40,161 bases of DNA from IMG/VR virus record IMGVR_UViG_3300031251_000058, positions 1 to 40,161 of that record; one strand, written 5' to 3'. Positions 3,501 through 18,935 of the stretch are shown here, piece after piece (within the stretch, counting starts at the first letter, position 1; each line of letters begins with the position of its first letter). The DNA is from a virus. The notes beneath the pieces are model-generated. The model made no database searches, was not told the DNA's origin, and saw nothing but the letters and a program-made list of their open reading frames with translations. A program made the translations under genes and the position numbers.

Positions 3501-3697
3501 TAGGATTTCAGCAAGCGCCCCGTCGGCCCGTCAAATTTCGCCGTCGCGCCATCCGTGGCCCCATTCGGCCCCTGCACGGTGACGGCGGCCCAGGCATTCA
3601 GCGCGTTGATCCACGCCCGAGTCATCTTGCCCGTGCGCGGATCAACCACCGGCTGATCGAACGGCAGATAGATGTTCGGCGTCCCGCCCCCCGCCAT
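3500..3697 (-). CDS. Small virion-associated protein
   Basis: 65 residues, with NIYLPFDQPVVDPRTG near the N-terminus and an Ala/Trp helix (AWINALNAWAAV). The PFDQPVVD..TG..T..W signature looks like small conserved proteins encoded after the tail module in podovirus genomes. The function is unknown. The start shares TGATG with the stop of the 511-residue gene and the stop shares TAATG with the micro-ORF, so it is translationally coupled within the late operon. Confidence 0.6.
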   Translation of the reverse strand: MAGGGTPNIYLPFDQPVVDPRTGKMTRAWINALNAWAAVTVQGPNGATDGATAKFDGPTGRLLKS

Positions 3698-5232
3698 CAG
3701 CTCGTCCCCGTCTGGATGTCAATCGTGCATTGCACCCACTGCCAGTTGACCGGATCGCTCACCGTCACTTCCGCGACCCAGTTCCGGCCGCGCCCGAGCC
3801 GCGTCACAAAGACGCGGTGCAGGTAGTCCCCCATCGCCCCGGCGGACATCTGCCGTTCGGCGCCCCAGGTCACGCCGCCATCACGCGAGAGGCGCAACAT
3901 GACGGTCGGATGCTCAATGAGCGCGGTCCCGATCCCGGTCTGCATGATCAGCTCGAGCCGGGAGAGAAACATCTGCTTGTTCTCGTTGAACGGCAACGGG
4001 AACCGGCGCATCCGGCGAATGGGATACGTCACGGTTGTGACCACGGGCGCCTCTCCAATGGCAAACCACGCGACGCTATGATCTGCGGCGCCACTCACGG
4101 TCGTCCAATCAAGGGTAAACGAGTGCGTCGCGTCGTCAAACCCAGTCATCTGCGCCAGAGAGCTAAATGTCGTGGACCCGGCGTTCGGCGTGGCGCAGCG
4201 GATCACATCGGTATCACTCAGGTAGCGTGCCCCCGTGAGCGGATCTTGATTAATGGCGCTTTCCCCCGTCCAGTAGGCCCCTTGGCGTGTGCCATCCGCC
4301 ATGCCGAGGGACCATTCCGCCGCCCCGGCGTTCCAGACGTCACTCGCGGGATCATTGATCGCCGCCAAGAGCACGAATCGATTCTGTATTCCTGTCACAA
4401 TCGTTTGTGGCCCCGTAGTCGTCGGTTGCGTCAAGACCCCAGACGCGCAGGCGCATCCGGAGAAGGCCACGTAGCTGGCCCCGATCGGCCCGGCCGTGAG
4501 ATCGAATCCATCGCTGGGGAAACCTGTGAGGCTTCGTAAATTTGACAACGGGTCTGTCGCCGCAGTAATCGGCAATCGCCTGGAGTTCCCTGAAATAGCG
4601 GTAGCGATGCTCATCACCGCTTGCGCTGGAGGAGCTAATTGCGCGGAACCCCATCCGAGTGATCCCTGCGCGGTGGTGCCTGTGTGCGTGCCGCCAATCG
4701 GAAAAATCTCCGAGGCGAATAGCACGCCAGTCACCGGCGCATGCGTCGTGGGGTAATGGCTCGCAACATTTGAGACGTAGCCATAGGACGCGTCCCCGCC
4801 AGCCAGCACGAGCACGAGATAACTGTCGCCGGATAACACATTCGTCGTGAGCGTGACGTCAAACTCACCGGATCGCACGGCGCTCACATAGCCCAGACGC
4901 CACCACGCCCCCCCGAAGAACGTTTGTGAGTGCATGGAACCGACGGAAAACTGATCACTCACGCCAGCACAATCTTCGCGCCCCCCAGATCCGCTAATAT
5001 TATTCTCCATCCCGAAGCATTGATGGACCGCGCTCGTATCGTCAATCCCGAGGGAGAGACGAGCGCCAGGCGTCGAGGTGCCCACGGCATATTCCAGCGC
5101 GTTCAACCCGCTATTCCCGACAAACAGAAACGTCTCACCGAGAAATGGCGCACCCGTATGATCCACGACGCCCGTGATGGTTTTCACGCCCGTGCCAGCA
5201 GTAATCGTCATGATGACGAGACACGCTTGCAT
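3697..5232 (-). CDS. Adhesin-like module fused to the C-terminal domain of a gp10-like tail accessory factor
   Basis: 511 residues. Residues about 403-511 match the end of P22 gp10-type packaged-DNA stabilisation proteins: PIRRMRRFPLPFNENKQ, LRLSRDGGVTWG, GDYLHRVFVTRLGRGR, then EVTVSDPV. The preceding 400 residues are unlike gp10. They are beta-rich and seem to hold two related units, each ending in a similar strand pair (FDVTLTTNVLSGDSYLVLVLAGG near 125-150 and FTLDWTTVSGAADHSVAWFAIG near 370-395), a pattern seen in tail adhesion domains. The N-terminal gp10 domain is in the separate gene 5607-6728. The start shares TGATG with a short upstream frame. I infer a tail-tip protein with an acquired receptor-binding module. 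The gp10 C-terminus is the surer part. Confidence 0.7.
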   Translation of the reverse strand: MQACLVIMTITAGTGVKTITGVVDHTGAPFLGETFLFVGNSGLNALEYAVGTSTPGARLSLGIDDTSAVHQCFGMENNISGSGGREDCAGVSDQFSVGSMHSQTFFGGAWWRLGYVSAVRSGEFDVTLTTNVLSGDSYLVLVLAGGDASYGYVSNVASHYPTTHAPVTGVLFASEIFPIGGTHTGTTAQGSLGWGSAQLAPPAQAVMSIATAISGNSRRLPITAATDPLSNLRSLTGFPSDGFDLTAGPIGASYVAFSGCACASGVLTQPTTTGPQTIVTGIQNRFVLLAAINDPASDVWNAGAAEWSLGMADGTRQGAYWTGESAINQDPLTGARYLSDTDVIRCATPNAGSTTFSSLAQMTGFDDATHSFTLDWTTVSGAADHSVAWFAIGEAPVVTTVTYPIRRMRRFPLPFNENKQMFLSRLELIMQTGIGTALIEHPTVMLRLSRDGGVTWGAERQMSAGAMGDYLHRVFVTRLGRGRNWVAEVTVSDPVNWQWVQCTIDIQTGTS

Positions 5233-5259
5233 CAGACGATCTGCTCGTCTAAGTAGCTA

Positions 5260-5463
5260 TCATCCATGTGATACAGCGTCTGCGGTCTGTCCATCCGTGA
5301 GCACCCAGCGCACGGTCCCATCGCGATTGTAAATGGCGCCGAGATTGCTATCGAACATGAGCAGGAATGTGCCATCCACCAACACGGCCGCGCCTTCTTG
5401 GACGGGTAAGTCCAAGAGGATCGTCGCACCGTCAGCTGCCGTAATGCAATGGCTCTCGCTCAC
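5260..5463 (-). CDS. Small beta-rich protein inserted in the gp10 locus
   Basis: 67 residues, starting at a GTG that directly follows the TAG of the 47-residue gene in the same frame. Residues 8-55 alternate hydrophobic strands and turns (GATILLDLPVQEGAAVLVDG, FLLMFDSNLGAIYNRDGTVR), suggesting a small beta domain. The frame ends in DAVSHG. A +1 shift a few codons earlier would instead give LYHMDDSYLDEQIV and run to the TGATG joining the next gene. That alternative end resembles the C-terminus of the gp10-like protein upstream. No family is recognised. Confidence 0.5.
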   Translation of the reverse strand: MSESHCITAADGATILLDLPVQEGAAVLVDGTFLLMFDSNLGAIYNRDGTVRWVLTDGQTADAVSHG

Positions 5464-5607
5464 CTAGTCGCCACCCGAAAACAGAAACGAGCCGGGCGGA
5501 TAGGCGCCGCCACTCCCAATCGACGTCCGCGGGCATGCACCACACGTCATGGCCGTAATCACCGGCGGTGGAGGAGGCGGCGGAATGGGTCCAAGCACGT
5601 CCGGCAT
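5464..5607 (-). CDS. Small proline-rich protein in the gp10 locus
   Basis: 47 residues. A run of seven prolines sits at residues 9-15, followed by a Cys/Gly-containing part (TCGACPRTSIGSGG) and SFLFSGGD at the end. The ATG shares TGATG with the stop of the gp10-like N-terminal gene, supporting coupled translation. The TAG stop is followed in frame by the GTG of the 67-residue gene, so readthrough would fuse the two into a 115-residue product. TAG is an ordinary stop elsewhere here (for example the ends of terL and of the gene at 10818), so readthrough is only a possibility. Confidence 0.45.
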   Translation of the reverse strand: MPDVLGPIPPPPPPPVITAMTCGACPRTSIGSGGAYPPGSFLFSGGD

Positions 5608-6728
5608 CAGGCCGCCACGATCTCTTCGTCGAAATAATCATCCGACAGGTGATAAATCGCCCCCGAGAAGCGATCACCGACGAGATGCTTATTGAAACAA
5701 AACACGTGCGAGCCGGCCACATGAGGCATCCACTGACACGTGATGGGATTCCACGTCGCCCATTTGTGCCAGCGATCCATCGTCACGTCATAGACCCAGG
5801 ACCACTGAATGTCGCGCGGCAGAATCAGCACATAGAAGACATGTCCATTCATCTGGTACACCCACGACCGCGCGTCTGTGGGGGTGCTGGCATTCTGAAT
5901 GTCCTGCTCCACGGCGAAGGTGCTGACCCGTTGTGGGGTGTAGCCGTCCGCGCGCCAGATGATGCCTTGCCCGTCGTCGTTCAGGCCCATCCAGATCAGG
6001 GTGTTGTCAATCCGCTGGGGCGTGAAGACGCCTTGCCCGCCATGCTCGATGAAGACGCCCTGCAGCGGCTGGAAGGGGTTATTGACATCGCCCGCGTCGT
6101 ACCAGACTTCCGACGTGCGAAAGCCAATCAGCCAGATTTCGCGGTGATTGCGGATCAGCGACGTGATGTTGTCGGCGGCTTCCGAGCGCTCGGCCGTGTC
6201 GAGCGCATCCCAGGACGTGCCATCTTCCAAGGCGGACCAGGAAAAGCGCCTGGATCCCCCTCCATAGCTGACAATGAAATAGCCGTCCATGAACTCGACT
6301 TGGCGCGCCGGTGCAGGAAAGTCCGGCGCGGTGATCGCGGCCAGCGTATCCGCCGTCAGATCGTAGATGTAACCCAATCCGGCAGAGATGATTAGTATTT
6401 GATGGCCCGCGCTGCCATTGCTCGCCATTGAGACCGGCTGGTCATCCGTGCCCACATCCCAGAGCGGACCGATGGAGTGATCCGCAAAGACTTCGGCAAA
6501 GCTACTGCCCGCGACTGCGAACATCCGATCGTTGATTTCAAATAGCCCACGGACGGGACCCTCTGGAAACTGCACGAACGGATGCATCCCCGGCGTGCGG
6601 ATGCTCCAGAGCGGGCTTTTGCCGTGCCCCGGCGAAGTCGATTCGAGGTATTCATTGATCGCATCGGATGCGCCCGCCTGAATAGAGGCCAGCGTATTCG
6701 CCGGATCAAGAAACGCATCAACAATCAT
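5607..6728 (-). CDS. gp10-like tail accessory factor, N-terminal (propeller-like) part
   Basis: 373 residues. It resembles P22 gp10-type packaged-DNA stabilisation proteins, which plug the portal vertex. Beta-propeller-like repeats run through the chain: NDRMFAVAGSSFAEVF, VEFMDGYFIVSYGGGSRRFSWSALEDG, NHREIWLIGFRTSEVWYDAG, FVYVLI-type strands, then WVYDVTMDRWHKWATW. P22 gp10 is about 470 residues. Here the chain stops after AIYHLSDDYFDEEIVAA, and the missing roughly 110 C-terminal residues lie at the end of the 511-residue gene at 3697-5232, about 1.6 kb downstream. ATGA overlap with the upstream 43-residue gene. Confidence 0.78.
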   Translation of the reverse strand: MIVDAFLDPANTLASIQAGASDAINEYLESTSPGHGKSPLWSIRTPGMHPFVQFPEGPVRGLFEINDRMFAVAGSSFAEVFADHSIGPLWDVGTDDQPVSMASNGSAGHQILIISAGLGYIYDLTADTLAAITAPDFPAPARQVEFMDGYFIVSYGGGSRRFSWSALEDGTSWDALDTAERSEAADNITSLIRNHREIWLIGFRTSEVWYDAGDVNNPFQPLQGVFIEHGGQGVFTPQRIDNTLIWMGLNDDGQGIIWRADGYTPQRVSTFAVEQDIQNASTPTDARSWVYQMNGHVFYVLILPRDIQWSWVYDVTMDRWHKWATWNPITCQWMPHVAGSHVFCFNKHLVGDRFSGAIYHLSDDYFDEEIVAA

Positions 6729-6856: not shown

Positions 6857-8175
6857 TAGGCCACCGACATGACAAGGCCGTTGAGCACCGTGGCGGTCTG
6901 CGTGAGGCCAGCAAAGGTGCCGGAAAACGTGGGGGAGCCGTTTTGCTGGATGATCCCCGCCGTTCCGCCGTTCACGCCCGCTCCCACGTTCAGATTGAGG
7001 TCGCCGCCGTTCTGCGGGGTCATCATGCCGTCATCGAAACCTGCGGAGGCTGCGATGGTAAAGGCGTGGCCATCCCCGGCCGTGGCCAGCGGTGCGCTAA
7101 GCAGGCCCGTCAGATACCAAATCGGGTCGCCGCTGTTCGGGTCAATGTCCAGCGCAAGGACGCTATTGGTCACATCGAAGAGAAAGTAATGCTTATCCGG
7201 AATAGCCACATTGCCGCCGCTCGTGCCGAAAGACCAATCTTGACTGGTCTCATCGGTATGCACTCGAGCGCTGTAGTAAGCGGAGGACGTGTTGGCATCC
7301 GTGGTGGTGCTGACGATATTGACGGCGTCCTTCCCATCGACCTCGCTCTCGACAGAGAATGCGGAATGATCCATTGCGTAACGGATGCCCACGTCTGGGC
7401 GGTAGAACATGAAATAGTTCTTCCCGAATTGATAACGATAAGGAACGCCATTCGCAGGCGTCCAATTCGATCCAAATTCCCCATCGAACCCGAATAAGGC
7501 AAAGTAATCAGTGTGAGTCGAATCACTATCGCCGGGCAGGAGCACCCGCAGCGGGTAGTTGGCGTCACCGGCGTCCACGATCGGCTTCAAGGAAAAGGCA
7601 ATCGCCGCATCCCATCCCGAGACCCCTTCAAATGACAACGAGTCAGTCGTCAGGGCAAATATCTCGGTTTCATCGTCCGTGTCGGTATCGAGCACCGGAA
7701 CGGTGACACCGCCGATGGTTAAATTCGCTGAGGTGCCGGCTGCGGTCATCCCCGGCGTCACCGTCACGATCACGTAATAGCCTGACCCTGGCGTGAGAAC
7801 GATATGCGCGTTGGTCAGATTCGCGGTTTCTGCCGGATCATGCGTAAACGTCAGTGCCGGGCCTTCGGTCCATCCCGTTCCGAGCGTGAAGTCGTCGGTG
7901 ACGAGCTCCTGTCCCTCGCCCCCGTTGAAGGTCGTCGGTCCCTTCCCACCAGCCGTATCAGGCGAGAAGGCCCAACTTCCCGTCAGCGTGTAATCCGCCG
8001 TCACATCAAAGCCCGCAATGACGGCTAATTGGTTACTCCCGTTGACATCAATGGTGGTCCCATCGACGCCGACCGCCAGTTTGTTCCCGCTCGAGCCGTC
8101 GCCAGACAGTGCGCCATTCGTGGCGGTTTCGACGGTGACGCCCGTCGTGACGGTCGGGAAGACGGACGAGGCCAT
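6856..8175 (-). CDS. Fibre-like virion protein
   Basis: 439 residues. The start at 8175 is chosen because it forms TAATG with the upstream stop; the open frame runs on but upstream codons do not look coding. Residues about 10-75 carry fibre-type repeats (ATNGALSGDGSSGNKLAVG, TTIDVNGSNQLAVIAG). A beta-rich middle (about 120-225) has alternating strands such as GYYVIVTVTPGMTAAG. The C-terminal 60 residues (AGDGHAFTIAASAGFDDG, NGGDLNLNVGAG) look like trimeric fibre shaft or head-fibre sequence. It lies between the gp4-like and gp10-like genes. A tail or capsid fibre role is inferred. Confidence 0.6.
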   Translation of the reverse strand: MASSVFPTVTTGVTVETATNGALSGDGSSGNKLAVGVDGTTIDVNGSNQLAVIAGFDVTADYTLTGSWAFSPDTAGGKGPTTFNGGEGQELVTDDFTLGTGWTEGPALTFTHDPAETANLTNAHIVLTPGSGYYVIVTVTPGMTAAGTSANLTIGGVTVPVLDTDTDDETEIFALTTDSLSFEGVSGWDAAIAFSLKPIVDAGDANYPLRVLLPGDSDSTHTDYFALFGFDGEFGSNWTPANGVPYRYQFGKNYFMFYRPDVGIRYAMDHSAFSVESEVDGKDAVNIVSTTTDANTSSAYYSARVHTDETSQDWSFGTSGGNVAIPDKHYFLFDVTNSVLALDIDPNSGDPIWYLTGLLSAPLATAGDGHAFTIAASAGFDDGMMTPQNGGDLNLNVGAGVNGGTAGIIQQNGSPTFSGTFAGLTQTATVLNGLVMSVA

Positions 8176-13975: not shown

Positions 13976-16387
13976 TCACTCCCCGGTCGGCGCTGGCTGC
14001 AACGCCGCCTGTTGCGCCGCCTGCTGGCTCTGAATCGCCCCGGCTTGCTGCCCCTGCGCTAAGGCTTGGGCGTGCTGCTCATCGGCCTGCGCCAAGGTGG
14101 TCGCATGATCCACGGCCGCCATCCCGAGTTCATGCGCGCGGTCGGCTTGGTTCTGCGCGGCTTCGTGCGTGGCCTGATGCACCTGCAGGGCCGCGTCTTT
14201 CTTGCTCGACTCCAGCGCCAGCCGCTCGGCCTGCATCGCGGCAATCGCGGTATTGGCCGCCTCGAGCGTGGCTTTCAGATCCGCCACGGCAAAGGCACTC
14301 TCGGCATTGATGCGGGCGACTTCGATCTTGGTCTGCGCATCGATCTGCGCCTTCTGCAAGTCGAACTGCCCTTGCACCTGCTTCTCAGCCGTCTTGCTCT
14401 CAATGGCCGACTTGAGCTGCTGATTCTCGGCGGCGAGTTGCTGGAGCCGGGGATCGGGCGCCTGCTGGCCGGTAATGGCCGCCTGCACCGCTGGTAGGAG
14501 GACGGCACGATACCGCTTCTCCAGTTCCTCATGGCCGGGCGCATCGCTGTATTTCCACAGAAGATCACCCACGACCTGCATTTGCTGCGGATCGGCGGAG
14601 AGTAACTGCCCTAAGGTCGATTCCTGCTCTTCGCGCCGGGTGTCGAAGTTCTTCGTGACTTTGACGGTGACATTGAACGTGGCGTCTGGCGTCAAGGTGT
14701 ATTGCTGCGCGTTCGGCGTCTGCGCGGTCACGGGCTGGCCGTCCGGCCCCACGGTCATCGGCTGCTTCGTCTGCGGATGCGGCACAAACGGCTGGCCCAC
14801 CAGCGCCGGGACTGTCTCGCCCTGCGGGTTCATCAGCCGCGCCATGCGCCCAGGCCGTCCATAGATCGGATACAGCAGGTCGTTGATGATGAGCCCTTCG
14901 TACCGCAGGGAGCGCGTGAGATTGCTTAGATAGTGGGAGGTGGCCTGTTCAGATTGCGTCAGGATGCGCTTCAGCTGCTTATCGCTGTTGATCTGCGGGT
15001 CCAGATTCGTCACATCGGGCACCGCCGTGGTACTCCGAATGGCCTGATCGAACAGTTGGACGGACCCGCCGATGGCCTGAATCTCCATCGTGATCGACGT
15101 GCGCGAGGGCGGCGGGGCCGGGCGGCCGTCGCTATCGATCTGCCGGTAGTGCAGCGTCGGCAGCGTGCGCGTCGTGGACAGCGCCCATTCGTTCTCGAAG
15201 TTCTCGTCCTGCCCGTCGGCCATAATCCACGGCGGAATGGGCGCGAGCCCGATCTGCTCCACCCACTTGCTCACCATGACGTTGTAGGCTTGCTGGCTGT
15301 CGCGGGCGGGGCGTACCATGCCTTCGGCGCGACGCTCCTGGTCAAACGGCTGGAGTTCTTCACCGAGCACCTTGATAATGGGAATGTACTTGCCTTCCCA
15401 CTCCGTCTCGTCCAGCACCTGTACGCCGTCGATCTTCGCCCACTTGATGCGCTTTTCGATGACCGAGCGGGAGACTTCCCCGCCGTCCTCGTCGCGGGCG
15501 AGTTCCGCGCCATCTGGCAGCTCGTCGTCATAGGCGGCGGACCCATCGGCTAGCTGGACCAGCGTGCGCGTCACGCGGTCCACGTACCAGTATTCGACCA
15601 CCCGCACGGAGCGCGTCTCACCCTCAGTCTTGAACCAGCCTGGCAACTCATCGCCAAGCGCCCGCCACTGCGTCGTGCTCATCGTCGTGAGTCGATTCTT
15701 ATCTTCCCCGACGGTCCCGAATTCGGCGCGGTAACGGTCCCACGGCAGATCCGTCCCGATAAAGCCCCACTCCGCATCAGAGCCGTCTGGCTGTTCGTGC
15801 GTCGGGTCCAAGCTCACGCTGGCCTGGTTGTAGATGCGCTGCACTTCGACTTCCTGGTCGAAGCTCTTGCCCCCCGCGAACCGCGTCATCACGCGGTAAT
15901 AGCCGCGGCCCGCAATCGTCGCCCGCGCAAAGGCCCAAGAGCGCGCATCCGCCGCCTGCGATTCTCGCTGGATGCGCCGCACGAGCCCCTCGCGCAGTTC
16001 AATCTCTTCGGGCGTCACGCCGGGCGTTTGATCACCGAAGTCATCCGCCGCGGCAATCTCAACCCCAAGCTCTGATTCCCGCTCGGCGTTCAGCACCTGC
16101 CGGACAGGCTCGCGCACTTTGTTGATGGTCAGACAGGGACGCGCGGGGACCGGCGGCAAGCCAGACGTCGCATTGCCAGGTTGGCCTTGACGGGCATCCA
16201 GCACTTCCTGCCGCCACTGTTTACCAGCGTAGAACTCCAGGTCTTCCAGTTCGCGGATGCGCTGCTTCTCATCGGCCTGTTCGGCCTGCTTGAAGCGGGC
16301 ACGGGCCAGTTCGATGAACTCGGCATCATCCGCCGGCATCAGTTGCCGGGAGAGGCGATCGGCGGGATCTTTGGATCGGCGCGCCAT
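13976..16387 (-). CDS. Portal protein, P22 gp1-like
   Basis: 803 residues; P22 gp1 is about 725. The N-terminus (FIELARARFKQAEQADEKQR, DLEFYAGKQW) matches the stem and wing region of the P22-type portal. Residues near 85-110 have RPCLTINKVREPVRQVLNAE, a hallmark (INK....V..V...E). Near 330-375 lies IIKVLGEELQPF and QQAYNVMVSKWVEQI, and about 440-500 contains IRSTTAVPDV and LYPIYGRPG. The last 170 residues are Gln/Ala-rich coiled coil, as in the barrel domain of P22-type portals. It forms the dodecameric packaging ring and partners with the TerL and gp4-like proteins encoded nearby. Confidence 0.88.
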   Translation of the reverse strand: MARRSKDPADRLSRQLMPADDAEFIELARARFKQAEQADEKQRIRELEDLEFYAGKQWRQEVLDARQGQPGNATSGLPPVPARPCLTINKVREPVRQVLNAERESELGVEIAAADDFGDQTPGVTPEEIELREGLVRRIQRESQAADARSWAFARATIAGRGYYRVMTRFAGGKSFDQEVEVQRIYNQASVSLDPTHEQPDGSDAEWGFIGTDLPWDRYRAEFGTVGEDKNRLTTMSTTQWRALGDELPGWFKTEGETRSVRVVEYWYVDRVTRTLVQLADGSAAYDDELPDGAELARDEDGGEVSRSVIEKRIKWAKIDGVQVLDETEWEGKYIPIIKVLGEELQPFDQERRAEGMVRPARDSQQAYNVMVSKWVEQIGLAPIPPWIMADGQDENFENEWALSTTRTLPTLHYRQIDSDGRPAPPPSRTSITMEIQAIGGSVQLFDQAIRSTTAVPDVTNLDPQINSDKQLKRILTQSEQATSHYLSNLTRSLRYEGLIINDLLYPIYGRPGRMARLMNPQGETVPALVGQPFVPHPQTKQPMTVGPDGQPVTAQTPNAQQYTLTPDATFNVTVKVTKNFDTRREEQESTLGQLLSADPQQMQVVGDLLWKYSDAPGHEELEKRYRAVLLPAVQAAITGQQAPDPRLQQLAAENQQLKSAIESKTAEKQVQGQFDLQKAQIDAQTKIEVARINAESAFAVADLKATLEAANTAIAAMQAERLALESSKKDAALQVHQATHEAAQNQADRAHELGMAAVDHATTLAQADEQHAQALAQGQQAGAIQSQQAAQQAALQPAPTGE

Positions 16388-17109: not shown

Positions 17110-18552
17110 CTAGGCTTGCCAGGCATCCGGCCCGGTCGGCATCCGCGGCGTGGCCCCATACCGGCTAGCATGCTTGGCCCGCTGCCGCGCTCGGGCTTCG
17201 TCGGTCGGCCGATCGGCGCCATAGGTCAGTTCGAGATATTCCAGGCAGTTCATGCCGTGCTCGAACCAGCCGTCTTTTTTCGGCTTGCGGATCTGCTTGT
17301 TCCCCACGCTGACCATGTGCTCGTCCCACACATAGCCCGCCTCGAGCGCATCCGCGAAGAAGGGCTCAGGCTTCGGGCCATCCAGGTTCACCAGTAGCCA
17401 ACGCTCTGGGTCGGCTTCGACCTGAAACGCTTCGCCCGTCGGCGTCCGTCGACGCAGATGCGCGCCAATCGCCTCAATGGTGCCCGCTCGTACGTCCGGC
17501 GCGTTCGCGTTCGGTCGCCAACTGGGGCTGAAGCCAAACCGCCGCACGATGTCCACGCCATTAAATCGGGCGCCCTGGCTGTTCTCGTGGCTTCCAGCCG
17601 GATCGCAGCACATCTGCACGCCCATCCGCAGATCAGGGAACCAGGCGGCGAGATAATGCTTCAGGAGCGGCAGGAAGTCATCGAGAAACATGTCTTGCCC
17701 GAGTAAGCCGCCGAGCACATGGAGACCGCCATAATAGGGCTGTTGGGCGAAGACGGCACAAGGATGGTGCTTGCCGAAGTCCAATGCAATCAACAGCGGT
17801 AAGCGCGGATCGAAATCTACTGCGTGGACATGCACGTCCCGCCGGAACAAGCCTTTATAGACCGGGACGCCGGTCACGTTGACGCCGCGTTGCCCGAGGA
17901 TCACGCTCCGATGTTTCGCATGGTCCGCCGGATACGCCCGCAACGCCGCCTCCACCAGTTCCGGCGGCAGATTATGCGCGTTGTCGTGGATGCTGATGGC
18001 GTAGTACTTCCGGCCTTTAATGCGGTTATCGACCGGAAACTGATGGGCCAGCCAATGTGTGACGTTCGGCGGGTTCGGGCTGAAAATGAGCTGGTGCGGG
18101 AAGCCGGGTTGCCGCAGACGAAGCCTCAGCTCGAGCGAGAAGTCTTCCGGCAGTTCCTCGGTTTGGTCGTTGTAGATCCCGGCCACGCCCATGCCGCGCA
18201 TCTTCGAGTAGCGTGAAAGCGCGTCGGGCGATTTCAGTCCATAACTAAAGCATTTACTGCCGTTGGGAAACTCGTAACAGAGTTCCTTCGCGTTCCAGCT
18301 CGGCACGCCGCCGGCCGCTTGGCAGACCGCCTCGAAAGCTGGTCGCACTTTCGTCTGCGTCTCGCCATCACCGTAGCGCCCGATCCACCAATGGATTCCT
18401 GGATGCGCGTGGACGCTGTTCCAGACCTTCCAGAGACACGCGGTCGTCTTGCCGCTCGACAGCGCGCCTTCAAGGTCAATCTCTGGGGTGTTATCGCGCA
18501 AGAAGCCGGCAATCGGCCCGCGCCAGCGCATCTCGACCGTGCGCTCAGTCAT
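17110..18552 (-). CDS. terL: Terminase large subunit
   Basis: 480 residues from the ATG at 18552. The open frame extends upstream over the tRNA and hairpin, but that part is not coding. The ATPase domain has a Walker A-like GALSSGKTT (about 29-37), a hydrophobic strand plus acidic residues GVAGIYNDQTEELPED (about 135) and LIFSPNPPNVTHWL. The nuclease domain has LLIALDFGKHHPC (near 245) and MCCDPAGSHEN (near 305), giving acidic metal-binding residues. It ends NCLEYLELTYGA. It cuts and pumps phage DNA into the procapsid through the portal. An 11-codon frame (MAPAHRADTDD) preceded by GAGG ends overlapping its ATG and may couple translation. Confidence 0.87.
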   Translation of the reverse strand: MTERTVEMRWRGPIAGFLRDNTPEIDLEGALSSGKTTACLWKVWNSVHAHPGIHWWIGRYGDGETQTKVRPAFEAVCQAAGGVPSWNAKELCYEFPNGSKCFSYGLKSPDALSRYSKMRGMGVAGIYNDQTEELPEDFSLELRLRLRQPGFPHQLIFSPNPPNVTHWLAHQFPVDNRIKGRKYYAISIHDNAHNLPPELVEAALRAYPADHAKHRSVILGQRGVNVTGVPVYKGLFRRDVHVHAVDFDPRLPLLIALDFGKHHPCAVFAQQPYYGGLHVLGGLLGQDMFLDDFLPLLKHYLAAWFPDLRMGVQMCCDPAGSHENSQGARFNGVDIVRRFGFSPSWRPNANAPDVRAGTIEAIGAHLRRRTPTGEAFQVEADPERWLLVNLDGPKPEPFFADALEAGYVWDEHMVSVGNKQIRKPKKDGWFEHGMNCLEYLELTYGADRPTDEARARQRAKHASRYGATPRMPTGPDAWQA

Positions 18553-18639
18553 CGGTATCCGCACGGTGGGCAGGTGCCATTTTCCTCGCAGAGAGGAGTG
18601 GTAGATGAGGAGAACGCGATGGCCGCGCTGGACTGCCCA

Positions 18640-18686
18640 AGAAAAGTCGGAGCGGGATTGAGGTTTGAGACGCCCCCCGCTCCGAC
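18640..18686 (-). terminator. Intrinsic terminator between terS and terL
   Basis: GTCGGAGCGGG (18646-18656) pairs perfectly with CCCGCTCCGAC (18676-18686), an 11-bp GC-rich stem with a 19-nt loop. Read on the minus strand the stem is followed by TTTTCTT (ending about 18640). It should stop leftward transcripts before terL unless they are antiterminated, so it may separate early from late expression. Confidence 0.65.
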
Positions 18687-18714
18687 ATCCAGCGCGCTTG
18701 CACCGCGCTCCAAC

Positions 18715-18798
18715 GCCCCGGTGCTGGAAAAGGTAGACAGGCCCGCCTTGCACGCGGGTGACTTCCAAGTCGTCCGGGTCCGAACCCCGGCCGGGGCA
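18715..18798 (+). tRNA. Class II tRNA-like gene, leucine-type body with anticodon TGC (Ala)
   Basis: An 84-nt cloverleaf. The acceptor stem GCCCCGG (18715-18721)/CCGGGGC (18791-18797) pairs fully. The D arm is CTG/CAG with GG at 18732-18733. The anticodon stem CCCGC/GCGGG encloses loop CTTGCAC, so the anticodon is TGC at 18749-18751. There is a long variable arm (GACTT/AAGTC, 18760-18771). The T stem CCGGG/CCCGG encloses TCCGAAC, with an unusual C at position 55. The discriminator is A and no CCA is encoded. The D-arm layout (TG, 3 bp, GAA..GGTAGAC) and the long variable arm match bacterial tRNA-Leu, yet the anticodon is alanine's. The G3:U70 pair needed by AlaRS is absent. It lies opposite the non-coding extension of terL. 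Confidence 0.75.
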
Positions 18799-18836
18799 CT
18801 TCTTACCCAACAAGCGACAGAAGGATATTGTACCAG

Positions 18837-18935
18837 ATGCCTAAGACCACCAAGCGGAAACCGCCCAAGCGCAAGCCAGGGCTCCCGATTTTCCTTAAGG
18901 ATTCTTCGCGTGCTCAGTTTCGTAGATGTGCTTGA
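18837..18935 (+). CDS. Possible 32-residue basic peptide, leaderless
   Basis: MPKTTKRKPPKRKPGLPIFL begins a Lys/Arg/Pro-rich peptide that ends inside the 3' part of terS on the other strand. No Shine-Dalgarno sequence is present, but TATTGT lies 5 nt before the ATG, matching the TANNNT arrangement in front of the other plus-strand genes. The sequence between terS and terL has no other coding role. It is short, so chance remains a real possibility. Confidence 0.3.
   Translation: MPKTTKRKPPKRKPGLPIFLKDSSRAQFRRCA

Follow-up and report, generated by a model that had tools for sequence, protein, structure and literature searches.

The single tRNA gene that ARAGORN detects in the window (the whole 40,161-nucleotide stretch analysed, an IMG/VR contig of a P22-like podovirus from soil) combines a leucine-type class II body with the alanine anticodon UGC. 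Our results make it probable that this is a genuine tRNA gene brought into the phage by a transposon of the IS1595 family. The gene folds into a complete cloverleaf and lies within an insert flanked by a target duplication; its closest relatives belong to a family of transposons in which the structure, the UGC anticodon and an unusual C at position 55 are conserved. These comparisons indicate that the tRNA did not originate in the phage, and its derivation from a transposon appears highly likely. An earlier sequence-only reading of the same DNA had correctly recognized the leucine-type body with its alanine anticodon, and had missed both the 8-bp duplication and the origin as an IS1595 passenger.

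Structure of the tRNA gene

18715..18799, plus strand: leucine-type class II tRNA gene, anticodon UGC (Ala); ARAGORN (anticodon tgc), direct reading and covariation with relatives

Read directly, the gene forms a complete 7/5 class II cloverleaf with a 7-bp acceptor stem (GCCCCGG/CCGGGGC, including C3:G70), U8 and G9, a 3-bp D stem (CTG/CAG), a D loop containing A14, A15, G18G19 and A20a, an anticodon stem CCCGC/GCGGG closing the loop CUUGCAC, a variable arm GACU-UCCA-AGUC with a 4-bp stem, and a 5-bp T stem (CCGGG/CCCGG) closing the T loop UCCGAAC, with C at position 55. A73 is found at 18798 and CCA is not encoded. ARAGORN and direct reading agree on the coordinates, the complete cloverleaf, the long variable arm, A73, C3:G70 and C55, all of which had been listed in the sequence-only reading. 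The Rfam tRNA model, in turn, yields no match to the window gene even at an E-value of 10; it is also blind to the C55 relatives from loci L025, L111, L028 and L106, and detects the T55 members L112, L115, L141, L135 and L022 at approximately 50-60 bits. The miss is thus a property of the C55 lineage, which escapes this model.

The fold energy of the window tRNA is unremarkable (z -1.29) and gives no evidence; that the gene is more than a chance cloverleaf follows from comparative evidence, namely pairing and covariation. Eight aligned related tRNAs show standard pairs in 184 of 184 cells, with both sides changed at 14 of the 23 pairs, and sliding the structure by one column as a control reduces pairing to 44%. 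Among the tRNAs with UGC, the stem sequences change from member to member, UUGCA and the UCCGA T loop stay fixed, and C55 recurs in all the transposon-borne UGC members found. This pattern shows an RNA kept as a tRNA-shaped molecule with a UGC anticodon, C55 being a lineage trait, not decay.

A 301-bp insert in the phage late region

17110..18552, minus strand: terminase large subunit (TerL), downstream neighbour of the insert (PHROG 2, E 3.9e-12)
18579..18586, unstranded: left 8-bp target duplication ATTTTCCT, from comparison with L003
18587..18887, plus strand: tRNA-bearing insert of 301 bp, probable remnant of an IS1595-family tRNA transposon, delimited by the empty site in L003
18623..18696, plus strand: long hairpin directly upstream of the tRNA, within the insert, from folding
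18837..18887, plus strand: opening 17 codons of the basic micro-ORF of the element, MPKTTKRKPPKRKPGLP, which continues into phage sequence
18882..18887, unstranded: terminal hexamer CTCCCG, the end of UGC-carrying IS1595 elements; the left end is unmatched
18888..18895, unstranded: right 8-bp target duplication ATTTTCCT, which reaches the stop codon of the terS-like ORF, from comparison with L003
18895..19176, minus strand: small putative terS ORF on the upstream side of the insert (phrog_11043, position and size)

Recognised phage genes in the window encode the portal (13976-16387), scaffold, major head, head closure, DNA ejection, Erf and TerL proteins, and nearly all recognised genes are on the minus strand. 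The tRNA is located in the gap between the terS-like ORF and terL, on the strand opposite to the late genes, as had been pointed out from the sequence alone. The upstream ORF is taken as a putative small terminase gene on account of its fitting position and size, phrog_11043 being a family without assigned function. Elsewhere in the window, two ORFs match separate parts of the head closure family phrog_578 (5607-6728, profile positions 11-364; 3697-5232, positions 369-472), and the head-closure gene (window 3697-6728) may therefore be split.

Twenty viral contigs encode TerL relatives at 45-100% identity, and the tRNA is present in L002 alone, whose TerL is 100% identical. ARAGORN reveals no tRNA in the other contigs of this set, the nearest relative of which, L003, has a different sequence at this position; a TerL search of genome contigs returned no match. 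The restriction of the tRNA to L002 among these relatives marks it as a lineage-specific insertion. The ends of the insert were fixed by comparison with L003, as deletion of 18587-18887 together with one copy of ATTTTCCT yields an empty site in register with that contig.

IS1595-family elements are characterized by a transposase, terminal repeats, an 8-bp target duplication and passenger genes. The window insert displays the 8-bp duplication; of the terminal inverted repeats, CTCCCG is found on the right and the left end, CGCAGAGAGG, is unmatched, and three transposases compared with the window by tblastn gave no match. Because its left end is unmatched and no transposase is left, we refer to the insert as a remnant and not as a member of the family; its features fit a shrunken copy of an IS1595-family tRNA element. 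In the window, the micro-ORF begins MPKTTKRKPPKRKPG after the tRNA and is truncated where the insert ends, and its counterparts are MTKRQKPKRGKRKAGRP in L025 and MAKKHKPRRKKGKPG in L028, with others in L106, L111, L112 and L148. Hairpins upstream of the tRNA were seen by eye in several home elements as well.

IS1595-family elements carrying related tRNAs

A pattern scan for a leucine-type D arm combined with a UGC anticodon, covering 2.9 million viral contigs and 84,980 genomes, produced few matches. One of these is L025 (titled Acidobacteria), where a near-identical tRNA, C55 included, is followed by the micro-ORF; the IS1595-family element that encloses both has terminal repeats and encodes a transposase (PF12762, 3.3e-33) along with an accessory ORF. 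An equivalent arrangement is seen in L028 (titled Betaproteobacteria), whose transposase is 72% identical. PF12762, the family of the ISXO2-like DDE transposases of IS1595 insertion sequences, is recognized in L025, L028 and L148, the other home elements being identified by transposase matches. Further loci were drawn from genomes of the same taxonomic sets as L025 and L028 and provided UGC tRNAs at L106, L111 and L129, UGG tRNAs at L112, L122, L124, L141 and L135, and a CUA tRNA at L115; that of L122 was found by covariance model R1 and by eye. Among 30 distinct transposase loci (E <= 1e-60), a set that includes shared ancestry, leucine-type tRNAs with a non-leucine anticodon are present at 11 and with a leucine anticodon at none (0/30); no such tRNA was seen at the other 19. 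L106 and L129, which belong to this set, have the same tRNA at sites with different target duplications.

Seven elements possess an exact 8-bp target duplication and terminal repeats with 18-22 of 22 matching bases:

L106, 4938-7002
L111, 3278-6649
L112, 2990-5251
L122, 782-3552
L123, 1292-3322, no tRNA inside
L129, 413-2471
L148, 170-3147, in a viral contig

The tRNA lies between the repeats in six of the seven, L123 being the exception, and the same element-end scan over 502 kb of control loci gave 0 matches. L025 also has terminal repeats and an 8-bp duplication, but its terminal trinucleotide is changed; at L115, L124, L135 and L141 the tRNA is near the transposase and element ends were not found. 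CCA is encoded by several members of the family. Transposase relatives on plasmids are less than 60% identical, and the three of these loci that were opened lack such a tRNA; a blastn comparison of the tRNA region with phage and plasmid sequences returned no match. The other UGC matches of the pattern scan over genomes (L024, L026, L027 and L029-L032) have T55, are imperfect in several cases, lack a matching IS1595 transposase within the locus retrieved and were set aside; one further match, L023, is not a tRNA.

Other tRNA-related sequences were observed in the same surroundings. Near the IS1595 transposase in L114, L115, L116, L117 and L122 are tRNA-like sequences with an acceptor stem and a T arm that lack a normal D arm and have instead GGYTGGTCCC followed by a hairpin with CTGG; some are just upstream of the transposase promoter, and in L115 and L122 one of them lies beside the class II tRNA. 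An irregular tRNA with a short variable loop (L126, 2773-2852; Asn, att by ARAGORN) is located upstream of an IS1595 transposase and is perhaps another type of tRNA passenger. L112 contains two nadA riboswitch matches in tandem (7724-7842).

Leucine or alanine identity

Alanyl-tRNA synthetase (AlaRS) uses the G3:U70 pair. This pair occurs in no member of the family, the window tRNA having C3:G70, and a 4-bp variable stem replaces the short variable loop of a class I tRNA-Ala; sequence and alignment thus agree with the earlier description of a leucine-type body with an alanine anticodon lacking the AlaRS determinant. E. coli leucyl-tRNA synthetase (LeuRS) does not use the anticodon for recognition (PMC9976931), a property on which the sequence-only reading had rightly relied, and its identity elements are A73, A15-U48, G18G19 and A20a, with a further contribution from G18:U55 (PMC9976931). 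The window tRNA has a long variable arm, A73, A15-U48, G18G19 and A20a; it departs from tRNA-Leu in its UGC anticodon and, like all UGC members, in the loss of the G18:U55 contact between D loop and T loop through C55. Since this contact is important for E. coli LeuRS, C55 may weaken leucylation. To that extent the earlier suggestion that C55 renders the tRNA inactive retains some force; it is weakened by the occurrence of C55 in every UGC transposon member. As most LeuRS elements are present, the anticodon is unread by this enzyme and G3:U70 is absent, a leucine-charged tRNA would be the likeliest product: the UGC RNA would be charged with leucine, perhaps weakly, and would misread GCA, and its sisters would misread CCA or UAG.

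Comparison with known tRNAs

Transfer RNAs whose body and anticodon disagree have hitherto been scattered bacterial and metagenomic cases of unclear purpose. The allo-tRNAs known from Acidobacteria, Clostridia and Proteobacteria are of serine or alanine identity, with an 8/4 or 9/3 acceptor branch (PMC7609411), and some are suspected to accompany transposable elements (PMC7609411, reviewing Mukai et al. 2017). The IS1595 tRNAs resemble them in this link with transposons and as natural class II-like tRNAs of soil bacteria with an anticodon (UGC, UGG or CUA) that does not match the leucine-type body, but differ in being 7/5 tRNAs, with a 7-bp acceptor and a 5-bp T stem in every aligned member, in their leucine-type body and in their location within defined elements. 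In Streptomyces and Kitasatospora, tRNA-ProX, which functions with ProRSx, bears the anticodons of other amino acids, alanine included, and mistranslates in E. coli (PMC11415595). It similarly joins a body of one identity to the anticodon of another amino acid; unlike the window type, which has a leucine body, U34 and U33, it has a proline body, A34, A33 and an adjacent synthetase gene. The element ORFs checked include no synthetase gene next to the tRNA. Ordinary bacterial and phage tRNA-Leu share with the window tRNA the class II body, the leucine-type D and variable arms and A73, but not UGC and C55, and IS1595 insertion sequences differ from the present elements, whose passenger is an anticodon-swapped tRNA gene with a conserved basic micro-ORF. 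In the open-licence literature we came across no account of IS1595 elements with tRNA passengers, or of a mobile anticodon-swapped family.

Codon usage and expression

The sequence-only reading had proposed that the tRNA might place leucine at GCA codons of the phage. GCA accounts for 79 of the 988 alanine codons counted and is absent from the portal gene. The GCA sites align with alanine in 49% and leucine in 10% of cases in relatives (n = 63), and recoding to leucine in the phage genes is rejected on this ground. Nor is there any clear depletion of GCA relative to phage relatives. Recoding was likewise not seen within the transposases, whose GCA sites align with alanine. Codons matching the tRNA appeared enriched in tRNA-bearing transposases (GCA 33/104 versus 67/418, p 7e-4; CCA 16/49 versus 32/182, p 0.03); this candidate signal was rejected because non-matching codons are equally enriched relative to flanking genes, a general A-ending composition explaining both. 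A scan for sigma-70 promoters and terminators around the window tRNA found none. In view of the lack of a promoter-like site, of a homologue beyond L002 and of a codon need, the window copy is read as a leftover, most likely a remnant with no proven role in the phage.

Origin and possible function

We propose that an IS1595-family element inserted at the terS stop codon, duplicating 8 bp, and that its transposase was later lost, which would have left 301 bp with the tRNA and the start of the micro-ORF. In the home elements the tRNA is a conserved internal passenger, with UGG or CUA versions in relatives; the transposon RNA would be charged, most likely by the anticodon-blind LeuRS, and could then serve the element as a low-level missense suppressor (nonsense in the case of CUA). 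Such a missense function is possible rather than probable. More tentatively still, IS1595 transposons might be vehicles of mobile, leucine-charged class II missense and nonsense suppressor tRNAs for alanine, proline or stop codons, which would spread between soil bacteria and their phages, the altered decoding benefiting the element. A defined transposon family that carries such tRNAs with a conserved structure and anticodon, and that has copies in phages, provides a vehicle for mismatched tRNAs and makes their purpose testable; it raises the question of how a transposon might profit from an RNA through which its host could misread alanine, proline or stop codons. The window would further illustrate one route by which a phage acquires an odd tRNA unrelated to its own codon usage.

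The role of the RNA in its home elements could be of another kind, such as that of a tRNA-shaped regulatory or structural RNA controlling the transposase or binding a tRNA-handling protein. The lack of a normal T loop in the C55 and G55 lineages, the hairpins directly upstream of several tRNAs, the other tRNA-like sequences near IS1595 transposases, the Schlafen AlbA_2 protein encoded by one element and the failure to see a recoding signal would all be accommodated by this explanation. A purely structural RNA, however, would need neither the conserved U33-anticodon-purine37 arrangement nor an anticodon that varies by group, and several members encode CCA; we regard it as rather unlikely. Retention by the phage for its own use, whether in decoding GCA as leucine or alanine or in replacing or shielding a tRNA under host attack, is in our view improbable: the tRNA is structurally perfect although the rest of the element is gone, and other phages hold leucine-type UGC, UGG or CUA tRNAs (L022, L145-L151), yet the rarity of GCA, the alignment of its sites with alanine, the lack of clear GCA depletion or of a promoter-like site, and the absence of the tRNA from every TerL relative except L002, whose TerL is identical, argue otherwise.

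The alanine anticodon, and the alignment of GCA sites with alanine, would also suit a merely odd tRNA-Ala charged with alanine. This is very unlikely given the class II body and the absence of G3:U70 from every member, and the UGG and CUA sister groups show that this body is not bound to any one anticodon. As to a decayed pseudogene or chance cloverleaf, to which the Rfam miss, C55 and the missing CCA might point, the window gene belongs to a family with UGC and C55 in common that combines perfect pairing with compensatory changes. That reading, the degenerate pseudogene of which had been named at the outset as grounds for abandoning the tRNA interpretation, is hardly credible for the window gene and is already refuted for the family.

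Related tRNAs in other viral contigs

A pattern search for UGG tRNAs identified L148, a viral contig with a complete element of 2978 bp that comprises the UGG tRNA, a transposase, a Schlafen AlbA_2 protein and the micro-ORF and that adjoins genes for a DnaB-like helicase and a Dam methylase. These elements therefore do enter phages. The transposase protein of L028 gave no match when compared with viral contigs. The Schlafen protein of L148 (1300-2751, AlbA_2 / HATPase_c_4) is encoded within the tRNA-bearing element. Some Schlafen proteins cut tRNA, so this neighbourhood may be meaningful.

The viral contigs L145, L146, L147, L149, L150 and L151 also contain leucine-type class II tRNAs, in these cases with a UGG or CUA anticodon; the stretches fetched show no IS1595 transposase. 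All 61 other viral loci found with the D arm CTGG...CAGG have leucine anticodons and T55. Finally, L022, another viral contig, bears a leucine-type UGC tRNA (173-258) with T55 and an encoded CCA; here too a terminase gene lies nearby on the other strand.
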